NCBI GenBank assembly: GCA_016841205.1
Contig: JAENZP010000002.1
Span: forward strand, 62,001 to 126,000
Length of the DNA: 64,000 bases
Reading direction: 5' to 3'
From: Desulfoscipio geothermicus
GTDB lineage: Bacteria; Bacillota; Desulfotomaculia; Desulfotomaculales; Desulfallaceae
Shown: positions 11,634 to 62,367 of the stretch, piece by piece
Numbering within the stretch: the stretch's first letter is position 1
Layout: the number at the start of each line of letters is the position of its first letter
Notes under the pieces: model-generated
Database searches by the model: none
What the model saw: only the letters and a program-made list of their open reading frames with translations
What the model was told of the DNA's origin: nothing
Made by a program: the position numbers and the translations under genes

Positions 11634-12824
11634 CTAGCAGTAGTTCAGTATCTTTTTGAAACCGGCTATAAAAAACCTCTCCGCCCAAGGCCTGGCGATA
11701 GATAATCTGCCTGCCAACCACGATGGATAGTCGATATCGCCATACCTGGATATGATACTTTGCCATAAGGGACGGTTAAAAAAATGGATTAATGTGTCTA
11801 TTTCCTTGTCGGACATACTTAAAAAAATACGTCTGTGCTCGAGGGCTGTCTGTATCTCATCCGCCATCTCCCTTTCCCATAACCACTGGTACTCTGCAAG
11901 AAACTCTGAGGATAGATTTCCTTTGGAGAGCGCTTTAGCTGCCACTTTAGCGCAAAGTTTTGCGCCCAACAGCCCAAGATACAGCCCCCCCCCTGATATG
12001 GGCTTGGTCTGGCAGGCAGCATCCCCTACCAGCAAGGTTCTCTCACCGTAAATTCCGGGAAACATACCGATGGGGACAACGCCACCCGTGCTGTAGAGAA
12101 TCTTCACGCCCTTAAAAATATCGGGATAGGCCTCCAGCATTCTATTAAAGTAATATTTCGAATGCTTGTCCCCCCCGCTTACACCGACCCCTACCCTTGC
12201 ATGCTTTTCGTCAACCGGTATAACCCAGCCGAACCAGCCCGGCGCAATCTCCCTGCCCAGGAATATGTGCACCATATCTTTTTCCGAGCACTTCAGCTCC
12301 ACTTCGGCCGCACACATGCGGATTACTTCATGCGGCGCGGAAGTATTGATCCGGCGGGCAACGCGTGAGTTGGCCCCGTCGGCACCGATCAGTAAACGGG
12401 CTCCGGCTGTAAACTCTCCACCGGAAGATTTAAACTTTACGCCGGTCACACCGGGAAAAAAATCACCTACTTCTGCCCTGACCCCGGTCAGTATTTCCGC
12501 TCCGGCAGACTGAGCCCTTTTCGACAAGTTACGATCAAATTCCGGGCGGTCGATCACCAGAGCATATGGCTCTTTATCTCTAATATAAAGCACTTCCCCG
12601 CCTGGAGAGTGGACAAAAGCGCCATGAATCCGGTTAATGATTATAGCATCCGGCATAGCAGCGGCTTTCAAGGTTCTGGGACTAACGAGCCCTGCACACT
12701 GCATGGGCTCGCCAATTTTCCGGTGCTCCTCGGCTACCAGAACCTGATAACCTTTTTCAGCAATAATTCGAGCTGTCTCACAGCCCGCCGGGCCTCCACC
12801 AATTACTATGACATCATAATTCAT
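11634..12824 (-). CDS. Geranylgeranyl reductase family FAD-dependent oxidoreductase
   Basis: 396 aa. The FAD-binding Rossmann start is GGGPAGCETA with an acidic strand end (VAEEH). It has the second FAD motif GADGANSRVARR and the C-terminal LLVGDAACQTKPISGGG characteristic of the ChlP/geranylgeranyl reductase group. The family reduces double bonds of prenyl chains (chlorophyll tail, archaeal lipids, menaquinone, dolichol). In a glycan operon next to a DPM-like GT2, saturation of the lipid carrier is a reasonable but unproven job. It lies 43 bp after the 85-aa peptide gene, with no convincing terminator between them. Confidence 0.88.
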   Translation of the reverse strand: MNYDVIVIGGGPAGCETARIIAEKGYQVLVAEEHRKIGEPMQCAGLVSPRTLKAAAMPDAIIINRIHGAFVHSPGGEVLYIRDKEPYALVIDRPEFDRNLSKRAQSAGAEILTGVRAEVGDFFPGVTGVKFKSSGGEFTAGARLLIGADGANSRVARRINTSAPHEVIRMCAAEVELKCSEKDMVHIFLGREIAPGWFGWVIPVDEKHARVGVGVSGGDKHSKYYFNRMLEAYPDIFKGVKILYSTGGVVPIGMFPGIYGERTLLVGDAACQTKPISGGGLYLGLLGAKLCAKVAAKALSKGNLSSEFLAEYQWLWEREMADEIQTALEHRRIFLSMSDKEIDTLIHFFNRPLWQSIISRYGDIDYPSWLAGRLSIARPWAERFFIAGFKKILNYC

Positions 12825-12867: not shown

Positions 12868-13125
12868 TTAAAGGATATTTGCTATTTGTGCAAAAACAAC
12901 GGACACAAAAACCATTGACAATGGAACGATACCAACATTTAAGGCCCTATCCAATGCGCCAGGCAGAGTAAACTCCGGAGCGGATGAGTTCCCCGAGACT
13001 GCCCCCGCCAATTCCTTTGCGGTAAGGAGCGCAATCAAGGCTAATGCGGCAATCAGACCGAACCCGGCCACTGTGGCAGCCGTACTTGCGGCAGTTGTAG
13101 TTACGGTGGTTACTGTCGAAATCAT
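12868..13125 (-). CDS. Small hydrophobic two-helix protein, first gene of the exopolysaccharide operon
   Basis: 85 aa. The N-terminal 18 residues are almost all Thr, Ala, Val and Ser. A first helix (about residues 19-38) is followed by a short polar loop with Asn, Ser, Pro and Glu, then a second helix (about residues 62-84). There is no cleavable signal with a polar C-region. The gene is preceded by a GGGGGGAG-type ribosome-binding site and the box-array promoter at 13216-13299. I do not recognise a named family. Direct membership of the agr regulon is inferred from the promoter, and the protein is a candidate membrane scaffold or regulator for the following glycosyltransferases. Confidence 0.72.
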   Translation of the reverse strand: MISTVTTVTTTAASTAATVAGFGLIAALALIALLTAKELAGAVSGNSSAPEFTLPGALDRALNVGIVPLSMVFVSVVFAQIANIL

Positions 13126-13193
13126 TGTTTCTCCCCCCTTTTACAATTCATCGCTCATCTCATCGCTCATTAACCTATTAGTTCTATAGAATC

Positions 13194-13207
13194 CCTCCTT
13201 TCGGAGG
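13194..13207 (-). promoter_or_regulatory. GAAA-tetraloop hairpin at the predicted mRNA 5' end
   Basis: On the minus strand CCTCC-GAAA-GGAGG forms a perfect 5-bp stem with a GNRA loop. It begins only a few bases after the start site predicted from the -10 at 13216-13221. It could protect the 5' end or hide the internal GGAGG. Further down the leader GAGCGATGA is repeated twice (13147-13170). Confidence 0.5.
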
Positions 13208-13215
13208 CCAACATG

Positions 13216-13299
13216 AAGATAACAAATATAGCCATAATCGTCTATATTTATTGTCTAAAAGACCTAATATCTTGTCCGCTTCTAGCGAAATTTGGTCTG
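13216..13299 (-). promoter_or_regulatory. Predicted LytTR-box array and promoter (locus 1)
   Basis: Read on the plus strand, four GTCYA/GTCTG boxes start at 13240, 13253, 13274 and 13295, so the spacings are 13, 21 and 21 bp. On the transcribed (minus) strand the box nearest the gene is the -35 (TAGACG, 13239-13244). It is followed by a 17-bp spacer and a -10 (TATCTT, 13216-13221). The 21-bp period equals the centre spacing of the two direct repeats known for AgrA/ComE-type LytTR regulators. The same geometry occurs at 14512 and 19598. Direct binding by the RR at 14620-15387 is inference. Confidence 0.72.
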
Positions 13300-13329
13300 G
13301 ATCTGCATTGATTCAAAGGCATTAACAAA

Positions 13330-13360
13330 AAATAAAGGGTTCACTAAGAACCCTTTATTT
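13330..13360 (-). terminator. Rho-independent terminator
   Basis: A 13-bp perfect stem (AAATAAAGGGTTC / GAACCCTTTATTT) with a 5-nt loop. On the minus strand it is followed by a T run, placing it 25 bp after the stop of the 339-aa secreted protein gene. It also separates that gene from the locus 1 promoter. Confidence 0.85.
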
Positions 13361-13385
13361 TCCAAGCATAATGTTGCCGTTAATA

Positions 13386-14405
13386 TCATTTGCCCCCGGT
13401 AACATGAACAGTTCCCTGGTAAACCCAATTTGTATCAGGGTCGCCTATATATGCCCGGAACGTTGTTTTACCCTTGGTTACCCCCGTTAAAGTTTTTGTT
13501 AAATCATTAGCCGCTGCCACACCGGCGTCATCTACTTGCCAATGAAATACATATCCGGCCAGGGAGAAGCCCAGAACCGATAATTCTAACGGCATCGTGT
13601 CTCCGGCTTTCAGATTAATGTTGTGATCCCACTCATTCCCTTCTTTAAGGAAGTGGGATTCCGACCGGACGTATGCTTTCAAAAGAGCAATTTCACCGGC
13701 ATAGCCCGGATCCACTTGGGCGCTGATAAGGTCTTTTGCTTCTACCAGTTTGTCGATGCTCCATCCTATAGCGCCGAGTTTGTCCGGGAAAGAACTGTAC
13801 CGGCCGGTGGCGGCTATCGTTAAGGCATCCCGGCTCCATCCCACCATAGCGCTGCGTACCTGCACGTAGTCTCCGGAAGCAAGGGCAATTAAACCCGAAA
13901 TATTATTTGTAATTACGTTCGGAATCTCCCCTTTGGCTGCCAGTAAATAGCCATACAGATCGTCGATGGTAAAATCGTTTCCAAACAGCGCCGTGATCGT
14001 ACTAACATGCTGCCTCTTAAATTCCTCCATACTTTTCCTCAGCCGGCTTGGTTCGTCGGAATAATAGACATCCGCAAGATCACAGACAAAATCGATTATT
14101 TTTTCCTTGGCCGCGGCCTCTCCACCCAGTCTGGCCATTACCTGGTTAGTCAGTAATACAGCAAAAATATCCGGCCACGGAGCGCTGTCAGGATCCCTGC
14201 TTAGATTGGCAAGCTTTGCTTTAACCGAAACCACGTCGCTCACTCCATCAGGATCAAGGACCAACTGTTCATAAACATTCACTAATTGTTTTTCCAGATC
14301 ATTAAACTCTCCGGCCTGAGCCAGGGGCGGTGTCAGGCTAAAAGCCAAACTGAAAACCGTAAGCGCGCACAGCATAAGCACAGTTATCCGCTTTCTCAAT
14401 ACCAT
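13386..14405 (-). CDS. Secreted protein of unknown function with C-terminal Ig-like region
   Basis: 339 aa. A clear Sec signal peptide (MVLRKRITVLML... to AQAG, cleavage near residue 31) is followed by a mostly alpha-helical region of about 220 residues. The C-terminal segment (about 255-337) is beta-rich with alternating Thr/Val (DAGVAAAND, LTGVTKGKTTF, TVHVTG) and reads like a bacterial Ig-like domain. I recognise no catalytic motif. An AAAGGAGG site precedes the ATG. The gene stands alone between a terminator and its own box-array promoter (14488-14550), so it is a probable target of the agr system. Confidence 0.8.
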   Translation of the reverse strand: MVLRKRITVLMLCALTVFSLAFSLTPPLAQAGEFNDLEKQLVNVYEQLVLDPDGVSDVVSVKAKLANLSRDPDSAPWPDIFAVLLTNQVMARLGGEAAAKEKIIDFVCDLADVYYSDEPSRLRKSMEEFKRQHVSTITALFGNDFTIDDLYGYLLAAKGEIPNVITNNISGLIALASGDYVQVRSAMVGWSRDALTIAATGRYSSFPDKLGAIGWSIDKLVEAKDLISAQVDPGYAGEIALLKAYVRSESHFLKEGNEWDHNINLKAGDTMPLELSVLGFSLAGYVFHWQVDDAGVAAANDLTKTLTGVTKGKTTFRAYIGDPDTNWVYQGTVHVTGGK

Positions 14406-14487
14406 TTACCTCCTTTTAAGCACTATCAGCTCTTGCAGCAATAATTTTGGCTTCACCTCCAGAAACATTTTTACAAATTGCAAATTC

Positions 14488-14550
14488 AAGTTAGCAATAT
14501 TGACACTAATTGTCTATATTTATTGTCTAGATGTAGCAATATAGTGTCTA
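14488..14550 (-). promoter_or_regulatory. Predicted LytTR-box array and promoter (locus 2)
   Basis: GTCTA boxes start at 14512, 14525 and 14546 (plus-strand reading), spaced 13 and 21 bp. A fourth at the expected 14567 is not recognisable. The gene-proximal box forms the -35 TAGACA (14511-14516), then 17 bp and a weak -10 TAACTT (14488-14493). It drives the 339-aa secreted protein. The first two boxes plus spacer (GTCTATATTTATTGTCTA) are identical to locus 1. Confidence 0.72.
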
Positions 14551-14587
14551 ATTCCAGTGATATATCATTTAAATTTGCATTGACTTT

Positions 14588-14621
14588 AAAAAAAAAAGAA
14601 GGATTCAATTTAGAACCCTTC
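14588..14621 (-). terminator. Rho-independent terminator of the agr operon
   Basis: On the minus strand GAAGGGTTC...GAATCCTTC (one mismatch) is followed by a run of about ten T. It overlaps the last codons and stop of the response regulator gene and ends transcription before the locus 2 box array. Confidence 0.8.
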
Positions 14622-15387
14622 AGCTACTCTTTAGAACTTTACTATTTGTCAATTCTTCAAGCTCCTTAAATTTTTCAACTGTTATTAAAGGCCTGTTCTT
14701 TGTATTTTCCATAACCAGTTCATAGCTGCTTCTGCTTGCCGGAACGAGTTCCTTGACCATCTTTAAATTCACAATGAACCCGCTATGGCTTCTGAAAAAT
14801 GGATATCCTTCCAGCTGCTTTTCAAGAGCGGATAGTTTGTCGTTTGTTTGAATTCGGCCACCGATAAAATAAATCGTGGTCTTGCGACCTTCCTTGGTGA
14901 CGTAGATGATGTCATCTAGATTCAAATAAACAAATTTACCGTTATTTCTAAATAGCTGTTTTCTACCAACATTGCCATCGGGATTTTTTAAGTAAGCATT
15001 TGGCCTGTCGGCAAATTTCCCGGACAGCACCAGTCTGATCCTATCCATTGTCTGCCTGATCCGGTTCATTTTAAAAGGCTTGACAAGATAGTCAAAAGCA
15101 TAAACATCAATAGCTTCACCCCTGAACTCGCTAAAAGCCGTGGCAAATACAATAAAAGTCCAAGGGTTAATATCAAATATTTCCCGGGCCAATTCAACAC
15201 CGTTTTTTCCCGGAAGGTCGATATCCAAAAAAGCCACTTGAGGCGATAATTCTTTAATCAACTTTATTGCTTCCAGCCCATCCCCGGCTTCGCCAATGAC
15301 GCTTACACCTTCAACTTCTTCAACCACCTTCCTGATCACCAAACGCATATCCGGATCGTCTTCTGCAATAAAGACAGTTATTTTCAC
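14620..15387 (-). CDS. agrA: LytTR-family response regulator of the agr system
   Basis: 255 aa. The receiver domain (1-125) has the acidic pocket AEDD, the phosphoacceptor in FLDIDLPG (Asp55 by count) and the switch Lys in DYLVKPF. A linker follows, then a LytTR DNA-binding domain (about 150-250) with YVTKEGRKTTIYF and FFRSHSGFIVNL. GTG start with GGGGAGG six bases upstream, 14 bp after the agrD stop. It is the obvious partner of the AgrC-like kinase. LytTR proteins bind pairs of direct repeats about 21 bp apart, which matches the three box arrays found nearby. Confidence 0.92.
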   Translation of the reverse strand: MKITVFIAEDDPDMRLVIRKVVEEVEGVSVIGEAGDGLEAIKLIKELSPQVAFLDIDLPGKNGVELAREIFDINPWTFIVFATAFSEFRGEAIDVYAFDYLVKPFKMNRIRQTMDRIRLVLSGKFADRPNAYLKNPDGNVGRKQLFRNNGKFVYLNLDDIIYVTKEGRKTTIYFIGGRIQTNDKLSALEKQLEGYPFFRSHSGFIVNLKMVKELVPASRSSYELVMENTKNRPLITVEKFKELEELTNSKVLKSS

Positions 15388-15401: not shown

Positions 15402-15542
15402 TTATTCACATTTATCAGGAGGAGCCGGCTGGTAAAACCAAAAAAAACAGACCGGCTTTATGCCGATAACAGCGACAAAAAGGGCCAACGTAACGACAGG
15501 TGTAAACATTAATCTCTTAATTATTTTAACGGTCAGCTTCAT
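15402..15542 (-). CDS. agrD: AgrD-like cyclic autoinducer peptide precursor
   Basis: 46 aa, missed by a length cut-off. It has the three parts of AgrD: an amphipathic/hydrophobic N-terminal leader (MKLTVKIIKR then a Leu/Val/Ala-rich stretch ending VIGIKP), a core beginning with Cys (CFFWF), and a charged Pro-rich tail (YQPAPPDKCE) comparable to the YQP/HQPE-P tails of clostridial AgrD. By analogy with clostridial precursors the thiolactone ring would be the five residues CFFWF; this is inferred. A second Cys (residue 45) in the tail is unusual. It overlaps the agrB 3' end by 17 bp and has GGAGG ten bases before its ATG. Confidence 0.88.
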   Translation of the reverse strand: MKLTVKIIKRLMFTPVVTLALFVAVIGIKPVCFFWFYQPAPPDKCE

Positions 15543-16194
15543 TGGCTTGATACCTCCTTTCCATAAATAATCCTGTTAAGCCTGCCAAGAGATTATCTAA
15601 TTGATGTACGATTTTATATCCCGGGGGTGAGAAACTGATTGTCTGAGTCATGACGGCAATAAGGCCCGCCAGAGCAAGGGATGAGCCGGCATAGCGCAGA
15701 ACAATTATACTGACCCCTAACCATAAACTAAGATAGACCACTGAAAGAACTTTAAACATATTTCTTTCAGTAATATTTGTAATCTTTTTATAAGGCACTT
15801 CCCCCGGCACCAAGGCCAAAACACAAAGGAAGGATAATAAATATCCCGCCAGCAGTAAAAATACCGGTAAATTAATTGATAAATAACGTCCCAGGTATAT
15901 TCCCAGTTCTCCGGCACCAAGATAAGTAAAAACCCCCAGGGTAAGGCATCTCCAATACCCACTGCAGTGGGCTCCGCCGCTTAGAAGCCGGTAAACAGCT
16001 CCGCAAACCATGGCAAACGCCACTTCGGGAAGTATCCCAAGCAAGCGGGCCAGACTCAGAAGGATAATCCCCTTAATTAAAGCGGCAAAAATAATTTCCA
16101 AGCCAAAGCGCAGAGTATCGATTTTATTAGTATCCAGCGCCAGTTCCCTGGACAGGTAGTTAGCAGTTCTTCCGGCCAGTTGATTTAGATTCAT
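15526..16194 (-). CDS. agrB: AgrB-like peptide-processing membrane endopeptidase
   Basis: 222-aa integral membrane protein with about five to six helices (PF04647 type). The catalytic pair is visible in SGGAHCSGYWRC: His76 and Cys83 by count, almost the same positions as His77/Cys84 of Staphylococcus AgrB. It cleaves the AgrD tail and closes the thiolactone before export. It lies 11 bp after agrC and overlaps agrD. The length fits the family (about 190-225). Confidence 0.92.
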   Translation of the reverse strand: MNLNQLAGRTANYLSRELALDTNKIDTLRFGLEIIFAALIKGIILLSLARLLGILPEVAFAMVCGAVYRLLSGGAHCSGYWRCLTLGVFTYLGAGELGIYLGRYLSINLPVFLLLAGYLLSFLCVLALVPGEVPYKKITNITERNMFKVLSVVYLSLWLGVSIIVLRYAGSSLALAGLIAVMTQTISFSPPGYKIVHQLDNLLAGLTGLFMERRYQANEADR

Positions 16195-16205
16195 TTAACT
16201 CCACC

Positions 16206-17579
16206 TCATTTTATTACAGGTATTATAACGGTAAAGGTTGTTTCTTCAGCGCTGCTGCTAATGCTAATGTCACCCCGGTATTTGCTTACGATATCCTGGA
16301 CAATTGACAGGCCCAGACCGGAATGCCCTTCTTTAGTAGTAAAACCGGCTTTGAATATATCTTCTCTAACTTCGGGGACGATAGGGTCCCCTGTATTGCC
16401 GACTATGATTAAATATAACCCTTGCTCGCAGGTTATTTTTACTTTTACCCGCGTGCCCGCACCGGTTTTACCTTCCACGGCTCCCAGGGCGTTATCAATC
16501 AAGTTTCCAAGCAAGGAGCTTGCCTCATGAGGCGTTAAAGGCAATTCTCTGAGGCTGCATTCAACGGCTACTTCCATTTCTATATTTTTAGCTTCGGCCA
16601 GTCCCATTTTAGTGTAGAGAAGAGCGCTAATACTAAAATTATCGGTTCTTATCAACTCCCCGGTTTTGGATATTTCGCCGAATAACCCGCTTATATAATC
16701 CCGCGCTCTCTCATATAAGCCGGCCTCAAGCAGTCCGTAAATGGTCTGCAGCTGGTGATGAAAATCATGTCTCTGCTTTCTGGAAGAGTTAATCAATTGT
16801 TTGATCTGTTGTAAGTTTTCCTCCGCTCTCTTGGCCTCGTATTCCTTTTCCACATACTGTCCTATTTTTTTAACGGCGACAGTGGATAGGACAGTTAAAA
16901 AAATAATGAATATTCCAAAGATCCCGTTAAAGAGATCAAAACGTTCCCCTGGAAAAACATTCAACCTGGCAGCTTCAAAAGCCATGTTTAAGAGCGCCAG
17001 TAATAGTACGGGCAGGAGAACGACTATAAAGATCACCAAACTATGATTGTTAACAATGTCCGCATTCAAATTATCATGAATTTCTTTTCTTGATAAGTGT
17101 CTTAAAGTCCCATAATTTTGGGAATAACCGATCAAGGAAATATTAAAAAATTTACAGGCCACGATAAATATCAGCATAACCAAGGCCTGCGGAAGAAAGT
17201 AAAGAATTCTTATAAATGAATAATTCCAAACCTCGGCCAGTGAAAAACCTTCGATTTGCAGCATGAACTGTATTGCTACCGTTTCCACCGAGCCGTAAAA
17301 AATCAGGCCAAATAAAGATGCAAGTATAACTATCTTATATGGCAAGCGAGTAACCAGGCGAATATTTATAACAAATAAAATTATTCCAAGGATTGAGTGA
17401 AGCCCGAAAGGCACCGGCAAGAGCCGGATAATATAATCAAAACCCACCTGTAAAATTCCAATGATAATTAAGTCGGACCACCATGGCTTAAGTCCTACCA
17501 GCAAAAATCCCAGGGCGGCTACCAAGACCGCTTCAGGAAACGTAACCATTAACAGGGAAACGAGAGTCAATGTATTCAA
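16206..17579 (-). CDS. agrC: AgrC-like sensor histidine kinase
   Basis: 457 aa. The N-terminal half (about residues 5-225) has six or seven hydrophobic helices. A coiled segment follows, then a SpoOB-type DHp box RKQRHDFHHQL with phospho-His, an N box NLIDNALGAVEG and a G box GHSGLGLSIV (HATPase_c_5 type). This architecture is that of peptide-sensing AgrC/ComD kinases. It is the first gene of the four-gene agr operon, preceded by a very T-rich stretch on the plus strand and not by the GTCYA boxes, so no autoregulation is visible. Confidence 0.92.
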   Translation of the reverse strand: MNTLTLVSLLMVTFPEAVLVAALGFLLVGLKPWWSDLIIIGILQVGFDYIIRLLPVPFGLHSILGIILFVINIRLVTRLPYKIVILASLFGLIFYGSVETVAIQFMLQIEGFSLAEVWNYSFIRILYFLPQALVMLIFIVACKFFNISLIGYSQNYGTLRHLSRKEIHDNLNADIVNNHSLVIFIVVLLPVLLLALLNMAFEAARLNVFPGERFDLFNGIFGIFIIFLTVLSTVAVKKIGQYVEKEYEAKRAEENLQQIKQLINSSRKQRHDFHHQLQTIYGLLEAGLYERARDYISGLFGEISKTGELIRTDNFSISALLYTKMGLAEAKNIEMEVAVECSLRELPLTPHEASSLLGNLIDNALGAVEGKTGAGTRVKVKITCEQGLYLIIVGNTGDPIVPEVREDIFKAGFTTKEGHSGLGLSIVQDIVSKYRGDISISSSAEETTFTVIIPVIK

Positions 17580-17932
17580 AAACGGTAACCTTCTTTATTT
17601 CCTTATTTTAATTTTTACCTATTTTATATTATTTTTTGGTTTTTTTGTATTAATTTATTGTATATTTTACTTTAATTTTTATCTATTGAATATTAATTTT
17701 TTATTTTTTGCATTATTTTTCGACTTTTTTTTATATTATTTTTATATTAACTGAAAGTTATATTAATTAAAAAGCAGCCGGTTCCTGCTTACCATGTTTA
17801 AAAATTACTTTTTTTTGCCTAAAAATTTCTTTTTTTTATCTATATTTGCATAGGACATATAAAGAAGCACAAAAAAAACCGCTCCCAGGTCACTGGCAGC
17901 GTTGGCATAACCCGTCCTATATCTTAACATTT
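17580..17932. other. Gene-free AT-rich leader region upstream of agrC
   Basis: 353 bp without a convincing gene. Bases 17590-17760 are almost pure A/T with repeated T runs of 5-8 (plus strand), so agrC would be transcribed out of an A-tract-rich, probably curved segment. No GTCYA box array is seen here. The part nearer 17933 contains two further long T runs, which could act as the end signal of the CPBP gene, but I find no good hairpin. Confidence 0.5.
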
Positions 17933-18697
17933 TTATCTCAAAAGAAACGGCCATATAATGTATAAACCGATATTCGTTAACCCGTGAGCCAATGAGACAC
18001 CCAAAAGGGATCTAAAAAAGCCGGCAGCCATGGAAAAAAGCAGCGCAACGGTAAAAACGAAAATCAAGTCCACCGGTGAAAGGTGGGTGATGTGCAGCAC
18101 CCCGAATATGAAGCTGATATAAATAATGCCGTACCACTTGCCTAATGTCTCTACAGCCGCGCGATACATAACCCCGCGAAAGATAAATTCTTCCAAAAAC
18201 CCGGTGCTGACAAGCAGGATCAGCGCGGGAAGCCAAACATGCTGGAAAGTAAACTCCGTTACCAGAGGAGCGGGTTTTAGAATCAGATACTCCATCAAGC
18301 CCAGCGGCACACCAATAAGGGCCAGCGGCAACTGAAGGGGCAGATTGCCCAATGTCAGCCCGATTTCACGGGGCTTAAAGCCGGCAAATCTCATCACGGT
18401 AGCGGCAGCGGCAAAAAGCGGAAGACTAATGATCAGGTACCAATACATGATCGGAATGCCGTTCAGGGGTATAGACAGGCTCATAATTCGGATTAACGGG
18501 GCCAGGGACAAAGACAGATAGACCAGGTTTATTGCTTGCTTGTAAGCCAGGGAAGCATGTACAAGCAAGGCTATCAGCACAACCACATGACAGACGATCC
18601 CGTACAGCGGGTTGTAATAGGCTGTGATAATCTCCGCGGCAGTTATAACAGCCGCATACAACCAGATAAAAAAATGATCTTTATTATTCACGGACAT
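17933..18697 (-). CDS. CPBP-family intramembrane metalloprotease (Abi/CAAX-type)
   Basis: About 254 aa, polytopic. It has the three conserved CPBP motifs: EEFIFRG (E-E-x-x-x-R), FGVLH (F-x-x-x-H) and HGLTN (H-x-x-x-N). Family members cleave prenylated or bacteriocin-type substrates in the membrane; the substrate here is unknown. The open frame extends to 18823, but that extension would overlap the upstream gene by 140 bp, so I choose ATG 18697 (GGGTGG just before it), which leaves a 14-bp overlap. It is co-transcribed with the DUF1616 gene and so is probably part of the agr regulon. Confidence 0.87.
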   Translation of the reverse strand: MSVNNKDHFFIWLYAAVITAAEIITAYYNPLYGIVCHVVVLIALLVHASLAYKQAINLVYLSLSLAPLIRIMSLSIPLNGIPIMYWYLIISLPLFAAAATVMRFAGFKPREIGLTLGNLPLQLPLALIGVPLGLMEYLILKPAPLVTEFTFQHVWLPALILLVSTGFLEEFIFRGVMYRAAVETLGKWYGIIYISFIFGVLHITHLSPVDLIFVFTVALLFSMAAGFFRSLLGVSLAHGLTNIGLYIIWPFLLR

Positions 18698-19523
18698 CCA
18701 CCCACAAATGCAGAGAGCGATAGGGATCGCTCTCCCTGTTTTTAAATAGTAAAAACTCCACCTCCATATTTTCATGGGGCCTGTTAACGCTAAAGCTAAC
18801 GGGCTCTTCCCATTTTTCTTCATGGTTTAATTCAAAAGGACCCAACCGCTTTTTCAAATACCCGTTCATGCGCACCTCGGCTGTGTAAGAAACCGGACAA
18901 TATTCGTGGTTAACGGTTCCCAGGATAACTTCCTTTTCTTCACCCGCATTCATATCCCAGGGATAACCCTCTATCTTCCCTCCAGGCCCCAAAATATAAA
19001 ATTCCGTGAACTTCTCACCAACACTTGGTGAGGTTGCAACATAATAAAGGCTTCCCACCGCAAAAATAATAGACCCCACCAGTACTACCGAAAGAATTTT
19101 ATCCAGCCTGGAAAGGCTGCCCCATTTAACAATTTCTAAGTTTAAATCAACTACAAAACGTTTCTCGAAGGACAGCTTATTTCTTCGGTAGACTGTGATA
19201 ACGGACAGCAGGATTGTGAAAACCAACAACGTTAGCAATACGGGGTAAAGTCTTATTCCCCACGGGGTGTAGTTCAGGATGAGGCCAAGAAGCGGTACCA
19301 CGGCAATACTTAGACCGAAACTCAAGGCAGCCCGCTCAATGCCATCAATATCGCCCCTGGCCGGAAACAAAGCCGCTATTAAGGAATACCCGGGGAAAAA
19401 CAAGACAAAAGGCAATCCCAAGGCAACCGGCAAAGTTCCGCTCACATTAAAAACAATTAATACCAACAGGACAACAGAAATAAATAATATGAAGAAACAC
19501 TCGTTTTTTATTTTTATCCTCAA
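18684..19523 (-). CDS. DUF1616-family membrane protein
   Basis: 279 aa. Four to five N-terminal helices contain the family's PGYSLIAALFP and ERAALSFGLSIAVVPLLGL, followed after about residue 155 by an extracytoplasmic beta-rich domain (KFTEFYILGPGGKIEGYP and so on). DUF1616 proteins occur in envelope and glycosylation loci of Firmicutes and archaea; their biochemical role is not established. It is the first gene behind box-array promoter locus 3, with a short leader of about 45 nt. Confidence 0.85.
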   Translation of the reverse strand: MRIKIKNECFFILFISVVLLVLIVFNVSGTLPVALGLPFVLFFPGYSLIAALFPARGDIDGIERAALSFGLSIAVVPLLGLILNYTPWGIRLYPVLLTLLVFTILLSVITVYRRNKLSFEKRFVVDLNLEIVKWGSLSRLDKILSVVLVGSIIFAVGSLYYVATSPSVGEKFTEFYILGPGGKIEGYPWDMNAGEEKEVILGTVNHEYCPVSYTAEVRMNGYLKKRLGPFELNHEEKWEEPVSFSVNRPHENMEVEFLLFKNRESDPYRSLHLWVDVRE

Positions 19524-19573
19524 AAAAATTCAATCCCTTAAGCAGATTAAGGCGAAAAGATGTGGCATGTACT

Positions 19574-19657
19574 AAAATAACAACATTAAAGCCGGTTGTC
19601 CATGTTTATTGTCTAAAAACAGCAAAACTATGTCCAATTAATACATAATCTCGTCCA
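19574..19657 (-). promoter_or_regulatory. Predicted LytTR-box array and promoter (locus 3)
   Basis: Four GTCYA boxes start at 19598, 19611, 19632 and 19653 (13, 21, 21 bp), exactly as in locus 1. The gene-proximal box is the -35 TGGACA (19597-19602), then 17 bp and -10 TATTTT (19574-19579). The sequences between boxes differ from loci 1 and 2, so only spacing and boxes are conserved, which argues for function. It serves the DUF1616-CPBP pair. Confidence 0.72.
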
Positions 19658-19658
19658 G

Positions 19659-19734
19659 AAAGCTGAAGGGGTCAGACCTTGACATTTGACACGAAGTTAA
19701 GTGTCAAATGTCAAGGTCTGACCCCTTCAGCTTT
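19659..19734. repeat. GGGGTCAGACCTTGACA-type palindromic repeat, copy 1
   Basis: Perfect 34-bp inverted repeat with an 8-nt loop (19693-19700). The core GGGGTCAGACCTTGACA continues as TTTGACAC here and ATTGACAC at 50.6 and 62.3 kb. A T run follows, so it may double as a terminator for the symporter gene, but its sequence recurs at distant sites and it is best seen as a dispersed REP-like element. It abuts the fourth box of locus 3. Confidence 0.9.
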
Positions 19735-50630: not shown

Positions 50631-50688
50631 GGGGTCAGACCTTGACAATTGACACTGGACTACGTGTCAATTGTCAAGGTCTGACCCC
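50631..50688. repeat. GGGGTCAGACCTTGACA-type palindromic repeat, copy 2
   Basis: Perfect 25-bp inverted repeat (GGGGTCAGACCTTGAC AATTGACAC arms) with an 8-nt loop, between the MarR and recombinase genes. Arms equal those at 62267-62324; the loop differs. Confidence 0.92.
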
Positions 50689-54771: not shown

Positions 54772-54952
54772 TTCGAAAGAAAATATAATTGAGGGTTAAA
54801 ATAAGGGATTATTTACTATATTTATATAATTTATAAGTAAATTGTAAAATTATTAGATTTATATTTAATTTTTAAGTTAAATGAATAATTATGTTAGGAT
54901 AGGAGTTTTGTACTATAAATTTATATAAGGTATGATTACTTTGTAACAGAAT

Positions 54953-55088
54953 AGCAATTTTGCCTAATCTCAGTAAATCTAATGCGCTGAGAGCGGGGGA
55001 ACCAAGCATTTGGGGTGAATCCTGAAAGATTTCAGGTAGGGTATCTTTTACCGAACCCGACAGCTAACCTCGTAGGTATCAAAAGAAA
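54953..55088 (+). promoter_or_regulatory. Cyclic-di-AMP riboswitch (ydaO/yuaA type)
   Basis: The conserved blocks occur in order: GCTGAGAGCGGGGGAACC, TTGGGGTGAATC, AGGGTATC, and CCGAACCCGACAGCTAACCT with CGTAGG at the 3' end. This is the ydaO consensus, which senses c-di-AMP and usually turns off cell-wall, osmotic and ion-transport genes. It precedes the CAP-domain secreted protein by about 120 bp. Boundaries are approximate. The preceding 54772-54952 is AT-rich promoter DNA without a gene. Confidence 0.93.
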
Positions 55089-55094
55089 GGAGAA

Positions 55095-62266: not shown

Positions 62267-62367
62267 GGGGTCAGACCTTGACAATTGACACTGAACTGCG
62301 TGTCAATTGTCAAGGTCTGACCCCTGCCTACTCTGAAATGCGTGTCAATTGTCAAGGTCTGACCCCC
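62267..62367. repeat. GGGGTCAGACCTTGACA-type palindromic repeat, copy 3, with an extra half unit
   Basis: Perfect 25-bp inverted repeat (62267-62291 / 62300-62324, 8-nt loop), then a second copy of the right arm at 62342-62367. The right arm with CCCCTGCCTACT is thus present twice with a 42-bp period, showing tandem growth of the element. Confidence 0.92.

Follow-up and report, generated by a model that had tools for sequence, protein, structure and literature searches.

Agr quorum-sensing signals have mostly been studied as the private, fast-changing dialects of Gram-positive pathogens. In the 64,000 nucleotides of Desulfoscipio geothermicus DNA analysed here (the window), a preliminary description, made from the letters alone, had pointed to a short frame between agrB and a LytTR regulator gene as an overlooked agrD that completes an agr operon and may specify a new type of autoinducer. 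The locus raises the questions of whether this frame is a gene, which peptide would be cut from its product, and what the resulting signal would control. Very probably, in our reading, the frame is the working agrD of an agrCBDA set, in which the signal is a ring of the sequence CFFWF whose core is constrained, AgrA acts on arrays of TAGACA boxes, and a second cysteine in the tail has no role.

The agrD gene and its operon

The frame (15402-15542, (-) strand) encodes a product of 46 amino acids, MKLTVKIIKRLMFTPVVTLALFVAVIGIKPVCFFWFYQPAPPDKCE, with a hydrophobic leader (residues 1-31), a predicted ring (C32-F36, CFFWF) and a tail (Y37-E46, YQPAPPDKCE), its cysteines being located at positions 32 and 45. 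The features expected of AgrD were found, namely an amphipathic or hydrophobic leader, a Cys or Ser positioned five residues ahead of the cut, a proline-containing tail and a length within the range of 40-50 amino acids given for AgrD in PMC12312760. The NCBIfam model TIGR04223 (AgrD family cyclic lactone autoinducer peptide), a comparison that the preliminary description had called for, scores the product at 33.5 bits, over the curated cut-off of 19 (E 3.4e-8). The same model matches all five members of our AgrD set A1 and finds nothing above the cut-off in 14 control genomes. A putative ribosome-binding site, AAGGAGGT (15559-15552, (-) strand, read from the sequence), is separated from the ATG by 9 nt, and the frame overlaps agrB by 17 nt, so that both of these earlier observations stand.

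A short frame that finds no match in Pfam-A could also be an untranslated chance ORF within the gap between agrB and agrA. The score above the TIGR04223 cut-off, the clean control genomes and the conservation in orthologous loci, where the frame is open in nine orthologues and the substitutions in its core are synonymous, place it far beyond chance, and the ribosome-binding site likewise speaks for translation. The model score and the conservation rule this reading out, and we give it practically no weight. The earlier proposal had been staked on conservation of the frame beside agrB in related genomes, and the frame is indeed conserved in the orthologous agr loci. Judged by its sequence, the 15402-15542 frame is a genuine agrD.

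On one side, agrD adjoins agrB (15526-16194, (-) strand), the gene of the processing peptidase (PF04647, 117.1 bits, cut-off 23), in which H76 and C83 have the spacing of the catalytic dyad His77/Cys84 described for S. aureus AgrB (PMC10482373). On the other side lies the gene of an AgrA-type response regulator with Response_reg and LytTR domains (14620-15387, (-) strand, GTG start; PF00072 and PF04397), and a terminator-like hairpin followed by a T run, detected by a consensus scan only, is located at the agrA stop (14598-14621, (-) strand). Upstream of agrB, a TTG-started gene (16206-17579, (-) strand) encodes an AgrC-type membrane histidine kinase that matches SPOB_a, HATPase_c and HATPase_c_5; against the staphylococcal AgrC model NF046015 it scores 53.8 bits, below the cut-off of 500. 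With the kinase upstream of agrB and the receiver-LytTR regulator downstream of agrD, the operon is complete and has the order agrC-agrB-agrD-agrA. The TIGR04223 score and these Pfam-supported neighbors thus bear out the proposed completion of an agr operon by agrD. The four components, the spacing of the AgrB His/Cys pair and the LytTR regulator are shared with the agrBDCA system of S. aureus, whereas the gene order C-B-D-A is different.

The predicted ring and the tail

AgrD genes are common in this group of bacteria. The genome itself carries four that score above the TIGR04223 cut-off, each with a different ring, and AgrD was found in 55 of 60 relatives and AgrB in 54 of them. The 117 AgrD matches in the genome and its 60 relatives yielded 113 parsed sequences (three were outside the retrieved stretches and one was unparsable), of which at least one, in G031, is probably not an AgrD. 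Among these 113 there are 98 different rings, and the ring starts with Ser in 35 of the 113. At least three aromatic ring residues are present in 15 of the 113 and four in six, five of the six being CFFWF. The unusually aromatic character attributed earlier to the ring is therefore real, because four of five residues are aromatic in only these 6 of 113 parsed AgrD.

The second tail cysteine had also been considered atypical of AgrD; it is present, but a tail Cys occurs in 10 of the 113 parsed AgrD, that of the window included. Among the nine orthologues, it is private to the window genome: the position of Cys45 is occupied by Ser or His in all eight others. For this reason a functional role of the tail Cys, in a disulfide or an alternative ring, was rejected; the residue falls within the segment that would be cut off by AgrB. 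The tail comprises 10 residues including D, K and E, and the tails of the relatives are similar in length. A charged tail of 14-15 residues in the style of S. aureus AgrD (PMC12312760) is absent here; this length holds for staphylococci, and TIGR04223 does not require it.

An aromatic ring and a tail Cys do not set this peptide apart as a new kind. Given that it is one of four AgrD in its genome and that 55 of 60 relatives encode AgrD, the suggestion of a new autoinducer type was overstated; what is new is the sequence of a ring that belongs to the standard five-residue (thio)lactone class. Like the members of the TIGR04223 family, the product scores over the cut-off, combines a hydrophobic leader, a Cys core and a Y-Q-P tail, and is encoded next to agrB; unlike them, it has a short tail in which PAPP replaces the common PExPxxLRK, and a private second Cys. 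Table 1 of PMC12312760 likewise lists short aromatic or hydrophobic five-residue thiolactones, such as [CLWFT] of C. perfringens and A[CFMFV] of Listeria; the window ring differs from these in sequence and in that four of its five residues are aromatic. In the open-licence literature searched, we found no report of the CFFWF ring, the candidate TAGACA operator described below or a c-di-GMP riboswitch upstream of agrC.

The boundaries of the ring deserve separate consideration, because a real AgrD could be cut elsewhere, for instance within YQP, to give a ring other than CFFWF. The AIP-1 of C. botulinum, listed as ACYW[CVYQP] in Table 1 of PMC12312760, provides a precedent, and in the orthologues described below YQPAPP is as invariant as FFWF. 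A comparison with a confirmed product, however, favors a cut before the Tyr: the C. thermocellum AgrD yields a ring S25...F29 that ends before Y30, as confirmed by LC-MS/MS (PMC5322536). In addition, by the pattern used, a Cys or Ser lies five residues before a Y/F-Q/E/K-P motif in 113 of 114 AgrD. A different cut is, in our assessment, very unlikely. The predicted CFFWF ring and the C. thermocellum cyclic pentapeptide would both be five-residue rings closed just before Tyr; the latter is a Ser lactone encoded outside an agr operon (PMC5322536), whereas the window peptide has Cys and a full operon.

Conservation of the signal core

Orthologues were sought in 113 genomes of the order, with five AgrD sequences as queries (the class-wide search covers the same 113 genomes), and in a phylum sample of 398 genomes. 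Within the order, CFFWFYQPAPP is found in seven of the 113 genomes (G000, G005, G012, G034, G064, G036 and G089), which span four families (f1, f5, f8 and f15). Outside the order, the phylum sample contains CFFWF in G466 and SFFWF in G256; in both genomes agrC, agrB, agrD and agrA occur in the same order and are followed by a reductase-like gene. The G256 gene (L314, 1504-1629) carries a natural Cys-to-Ser exchange, the FFWF part of the ring being unchanged, and possibly specifies a lactone version of this signal. The nearest sister systems have Ser together with other rings, such as SFFHW. In a tree of AgrB that includes eight FFWF loci, these cluster together (support 96/97) within a mostly-Ser clade. 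Since nearly all other members of the clade in which the FFWF group is nested have Ser, the Cys of the FFWF ring is probably derived.

Substitutions are distributed unevenly along the gene. Over the nine orthologues, the 11 core codons have accumulated 11 extra synonymous codons and only one replacement (the Cys-to-Ser exchange of G256), and the 24 codons that precede the core 37 extra synonymous codons and 26 replacements. AgrB identity across the loci that share the core falls to 65%. Among pairs of FFWF loci with AgrB 60-89% identical, the ring is the same in 21 of 28 and its last four residues in 28 of 28; among such pairs from other agr lineages, an identical ring was found in five of 67, which indicates that the ring of the FFWF lineage is unusually stable. 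This comparison is based on AgrB recovered for 113 of 122 loci, including eight of nine FFWF loci (G064 is left out), and its pairs are non-independent. The signal core thus appears to be under unusually strong constraint, common to members of several families, and this invariance of the CFFWF-lineage ring across families is a further difference from the TIGR04223 family.

A candidate operator-promoter for AgrA

In the intergenic DNA of the orthologous loci, the same 87-bp stretch precedes the DUF1616-CPBP unit, the gene of a 339-aa protein and an 85-aa gene. It contains TAGACA boxes at spacings of 21, 21 and 13 bp. The last box takes the -35 position and lies 17 bp upstream of a TGnTAnnnT element with invariant T77, G78, T80, A81, T84 and T85. 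In 18 such sites, TAGACA-like boxes start at columns 2, 23, 44 and 57 in 10, 13, 16 and 18 sites, respectively, with 59 box matches observed vs a mean of 10.7 in shuffles. From sites at agr loci, among them the three of the window, we trained a sequence-only model, R1, with one weak site (27 bits) excluded. The candidate operator-promoters of the window, all on the (-) strand, are located upstream of DUF1616-CPBP (19573-19656, R1 72.9 bits), the 339-aa protein gene (14487-14568, 69.3 bits) and the 85-aa gene (13215-13300, 66.0 bits); the first and the last belong to the R1 training set and the second partly trained the model. A search of the genome itself found nothing beyond these three at E<=0.02, the next best match having an E of 0.028. 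Upstream of agrC there is a degenerate array of three TAGACA-like boxes (17795-17842, (-) strand; boxes at 17842, 17821 and 17800), 21 bp apart with one mismatch each, which the R1 search did not detect. In S. aureus, the repeats for AgrA have their centre at around -60 (PMC4227749), whereas the window candidates have three to four boxes with the last at -35.

An AgrA at least 58% identical to that of the window is encoded in 14 of the 113 genomes, and all 14 have an R1 site at E<=0.001; seven of the 14 contributed to the training. In genomes that were not used for training, an R1 site occurs in 7/7 with this AgrA vs 7/99 without it (Fisher 1.4e-7, a value that treats related genomes as independent). 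The threshold of 0.001 was picked after inspection of the list; at E 0.01 the counts are 7/7 vs 13/99. In the non-training loci with this AgrA, the R1 site follows shortly after agrA; the untrained G256 and G466 also have a site after agrA. In G097 and G054, agrBD follow agrA, and the R1 site is found 69 and 36 bp upstream of agrB, respectively, where autoinduction would need it.

The arrays might instead be bound by a regulator other than AgrA, with the agr genes merely among its targets. The argument for this comes from G046, a nearly complete genome (100%, 8 contigs) in which three strong sites (best E 1.6e-20) are present although a search at E<=1e-40 finds no AgrA. The co-occurrence of sites and AgrA subtype in all seven untrained genomes, the position of the sites in the non-training loci, where they directly follow agrA or precede agrB, and a 21-bp period that suits a regulator on one face of the DNA all weigh against another regulator, which we regard as unlikely. 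The agr system was possibly lost in G046, as its genus-mate G101 has both the sites and AgrA. Sites at E<=0.001 also occur in six further genomes that lack this AgrA; of these, G104 carries a fragment of AgrA at the end of a contig and G010 a broken AgrA. On balance, the occurrence of the TAGACA promoter follows that of this AgrA subtype, one clear exception aside, and the promoter is the best candidate for an AgrA operator.

Sites remote from agr precede genes of large secreted repeat-containing proteins (G012 and G046), acyltransferase-like genes (G034) and genes of copper-amine-oxidase-like secreted proteins (G005 and G012), among others, in the relatives, the gene labels being read from the translations with no database match behind them. 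The strong operator sites of G046, at L278, L282 and L283, are either orphan sites or sites of another regulator.

The DUF1616-CPBP unit and other candidate targets

The unit behind the strongest of the window sites starts with a gene of a DUF1616 membrane protein (18684-19523, (-) strand; PF07760, 313.5 bits), for which the literature, as far as it was accessible, offers no function, a DUF1616 protein being merely listed there as a glycoprotein. The second gene (17933-18823, (-) strand; PF02517, 49.9 bits) encodes a CPBP (Rce1-like/MroQ-like) membrane protease with the motifs EEFIFR, FGVLH and HGLTN, the real start of which is probably downstream of 18823. The other candidate targets are the 339-aa protein (13386-14405, (-) strand), which has a signal-like N-terminus and no Pfam match and is syntenic in five of the six CFFWF relatives examined (it is absent in G036), and the 85-aa hydrophobic membrane protein (12868-13125, (-) strand). 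A FAD/geranylgeranyl reductase-like gene (11634-12824, (-) strand) follows this block in the relatives.

The location of the CPBP gene invites the interpretation that its product is an MroQ-like enzyme dedicated to trimming this AgrD. The EExxxR and FxxxH motifs are as described for MroQ (PMC10482373), and S. aureus MroQ likewise lies upstream of agr (PMC12312760). In all six CFFWF loci whose upstream DNA could be read, a CPBP gene is found just before agrC (in G089 the contig starts within agrC, and the stretches read in G256 and G466 do not extend that far). Furthermore, of 71 CPBP matches in the genome and its 60 relatives, five lie about 2 kb upstream of agrB, and these are the five CFFWF loci then known, the positions having been compared by eye. 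A dedicated agr protease was at first the favored interpretation, but it was weakened by DUF1616-CPBP units without agr: in six of six other genomes, the stretch of about 3.7 kb around such a unit contains no agr gene, and AgrB is encoded on other contigs or more than 1 million bases away. Moreover, the Ser-type sister agr loci of G010 and G038 have no CPBP gene nearby. As the MroQ-like protease of the window is tied to DUF1616, unlike MroQ itself, and also occurs without agr, a dedicated processing role is not supported, and we consider it doubtful. The better reading would be that CPBP is part of a surface module brought under agr control.

The recurring arrangement without agr (L308-L313) consists of DUF1616-CPBP, often together with the 85-aa gene and sometimes with the 339-aa gene, corresponding to 12868-14405 and 17933-19523 in the window.

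Proposed signaling and its possible significance

A scheme can be outlined that starts from what is documented in the DNA itself, that is, the gene, the operon, their conservation, the promoter signature and its co-occurrence with AgrA. By analogy with the respective families, AgrB would cut AgrD after Phe36 and close the five-residue thiolactone Cys-Phe-Phe-Trp-Phe, with the cut-site geometry of the LC-MS/MS-confirmed C. thermocellum peptide (PMC5322536), and a second protease would trim the leader before Cys32. Cys45 would depart with the C-terminal tail and play no role in the signal. The exported ring would then activate the AgrC kinase and, through it, the LytTR regulator AgrA, which most likely binds the TAGACA arrays (21, 21 and 13 bp), their last box serving as the -35 element of an extended -10 promoter. 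AgrA would switch on the DUF1616-CPBP unit and the genes of the 339-aa secreted protein and of the 85-aa membrane protein; its targets probably include agrC as well.

This is a known family with a new ring, raised above the routine by the stability of the ring and by an operator that can be read. The TAGACA promoter signature allows the regulon to be read from sequence. The same aromatic core and the same promoter switch have been kept in distant bacteria, which suggests a shared chemical message, and a ring identical across families in which AgrB has diverged to 65% identity points to a language that environmental anaerobes have in common. More tentatively, and short of an even chance in our estimate, the cyclic FFWF pentapeptide could be a shared, near-invariant pheromone, produced and sensed across several families of anaerobic Bacillota. 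It would drive a surface module through a conserved multi-box operator, with gating upstream of agrC by a c-di-GMP riboswitch in some lineages. If so, it would contrast with the usual diversification of agr signals, and the Cys/Ser exchange of G256 would represent thiolactone and lactone forms that serve the same receptor type.

Riboswitches and repeats

A c-di-GMP-I riboswitch above the Rfam gathering score is present between CPBP and agrC in three of six orthologous loci, those of G034, G036 and G064 (L060, 7791-7898; L061, 5662-5768; L190, 11210-11312, (-) strand); the Rfam search found no c-di-GMP-I riboswitch upstream of agrC in the window, G005 or G012. In the lineages of G034, G036 and G064, c-di-GMP may gate the kinase gene. 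PMC3754575 mentions a C. difficile c-di-GMP riboswitch at the flagellar operon, not at agr. The window also contains a c-di-AMP riboswitch (ydaO/yuaA; 54951-55094, (+) strand, 97.9 bits).

A palindromic repeat around GGGGTCAGACCTTGACA occurs in the window at 19668-19725, 50631-50688 and 62267-62366, with seven matches vs none expected in shuffles. It looks like a mobile or REP-like element, and one copy is located just upstream of the DUF1616 operator.
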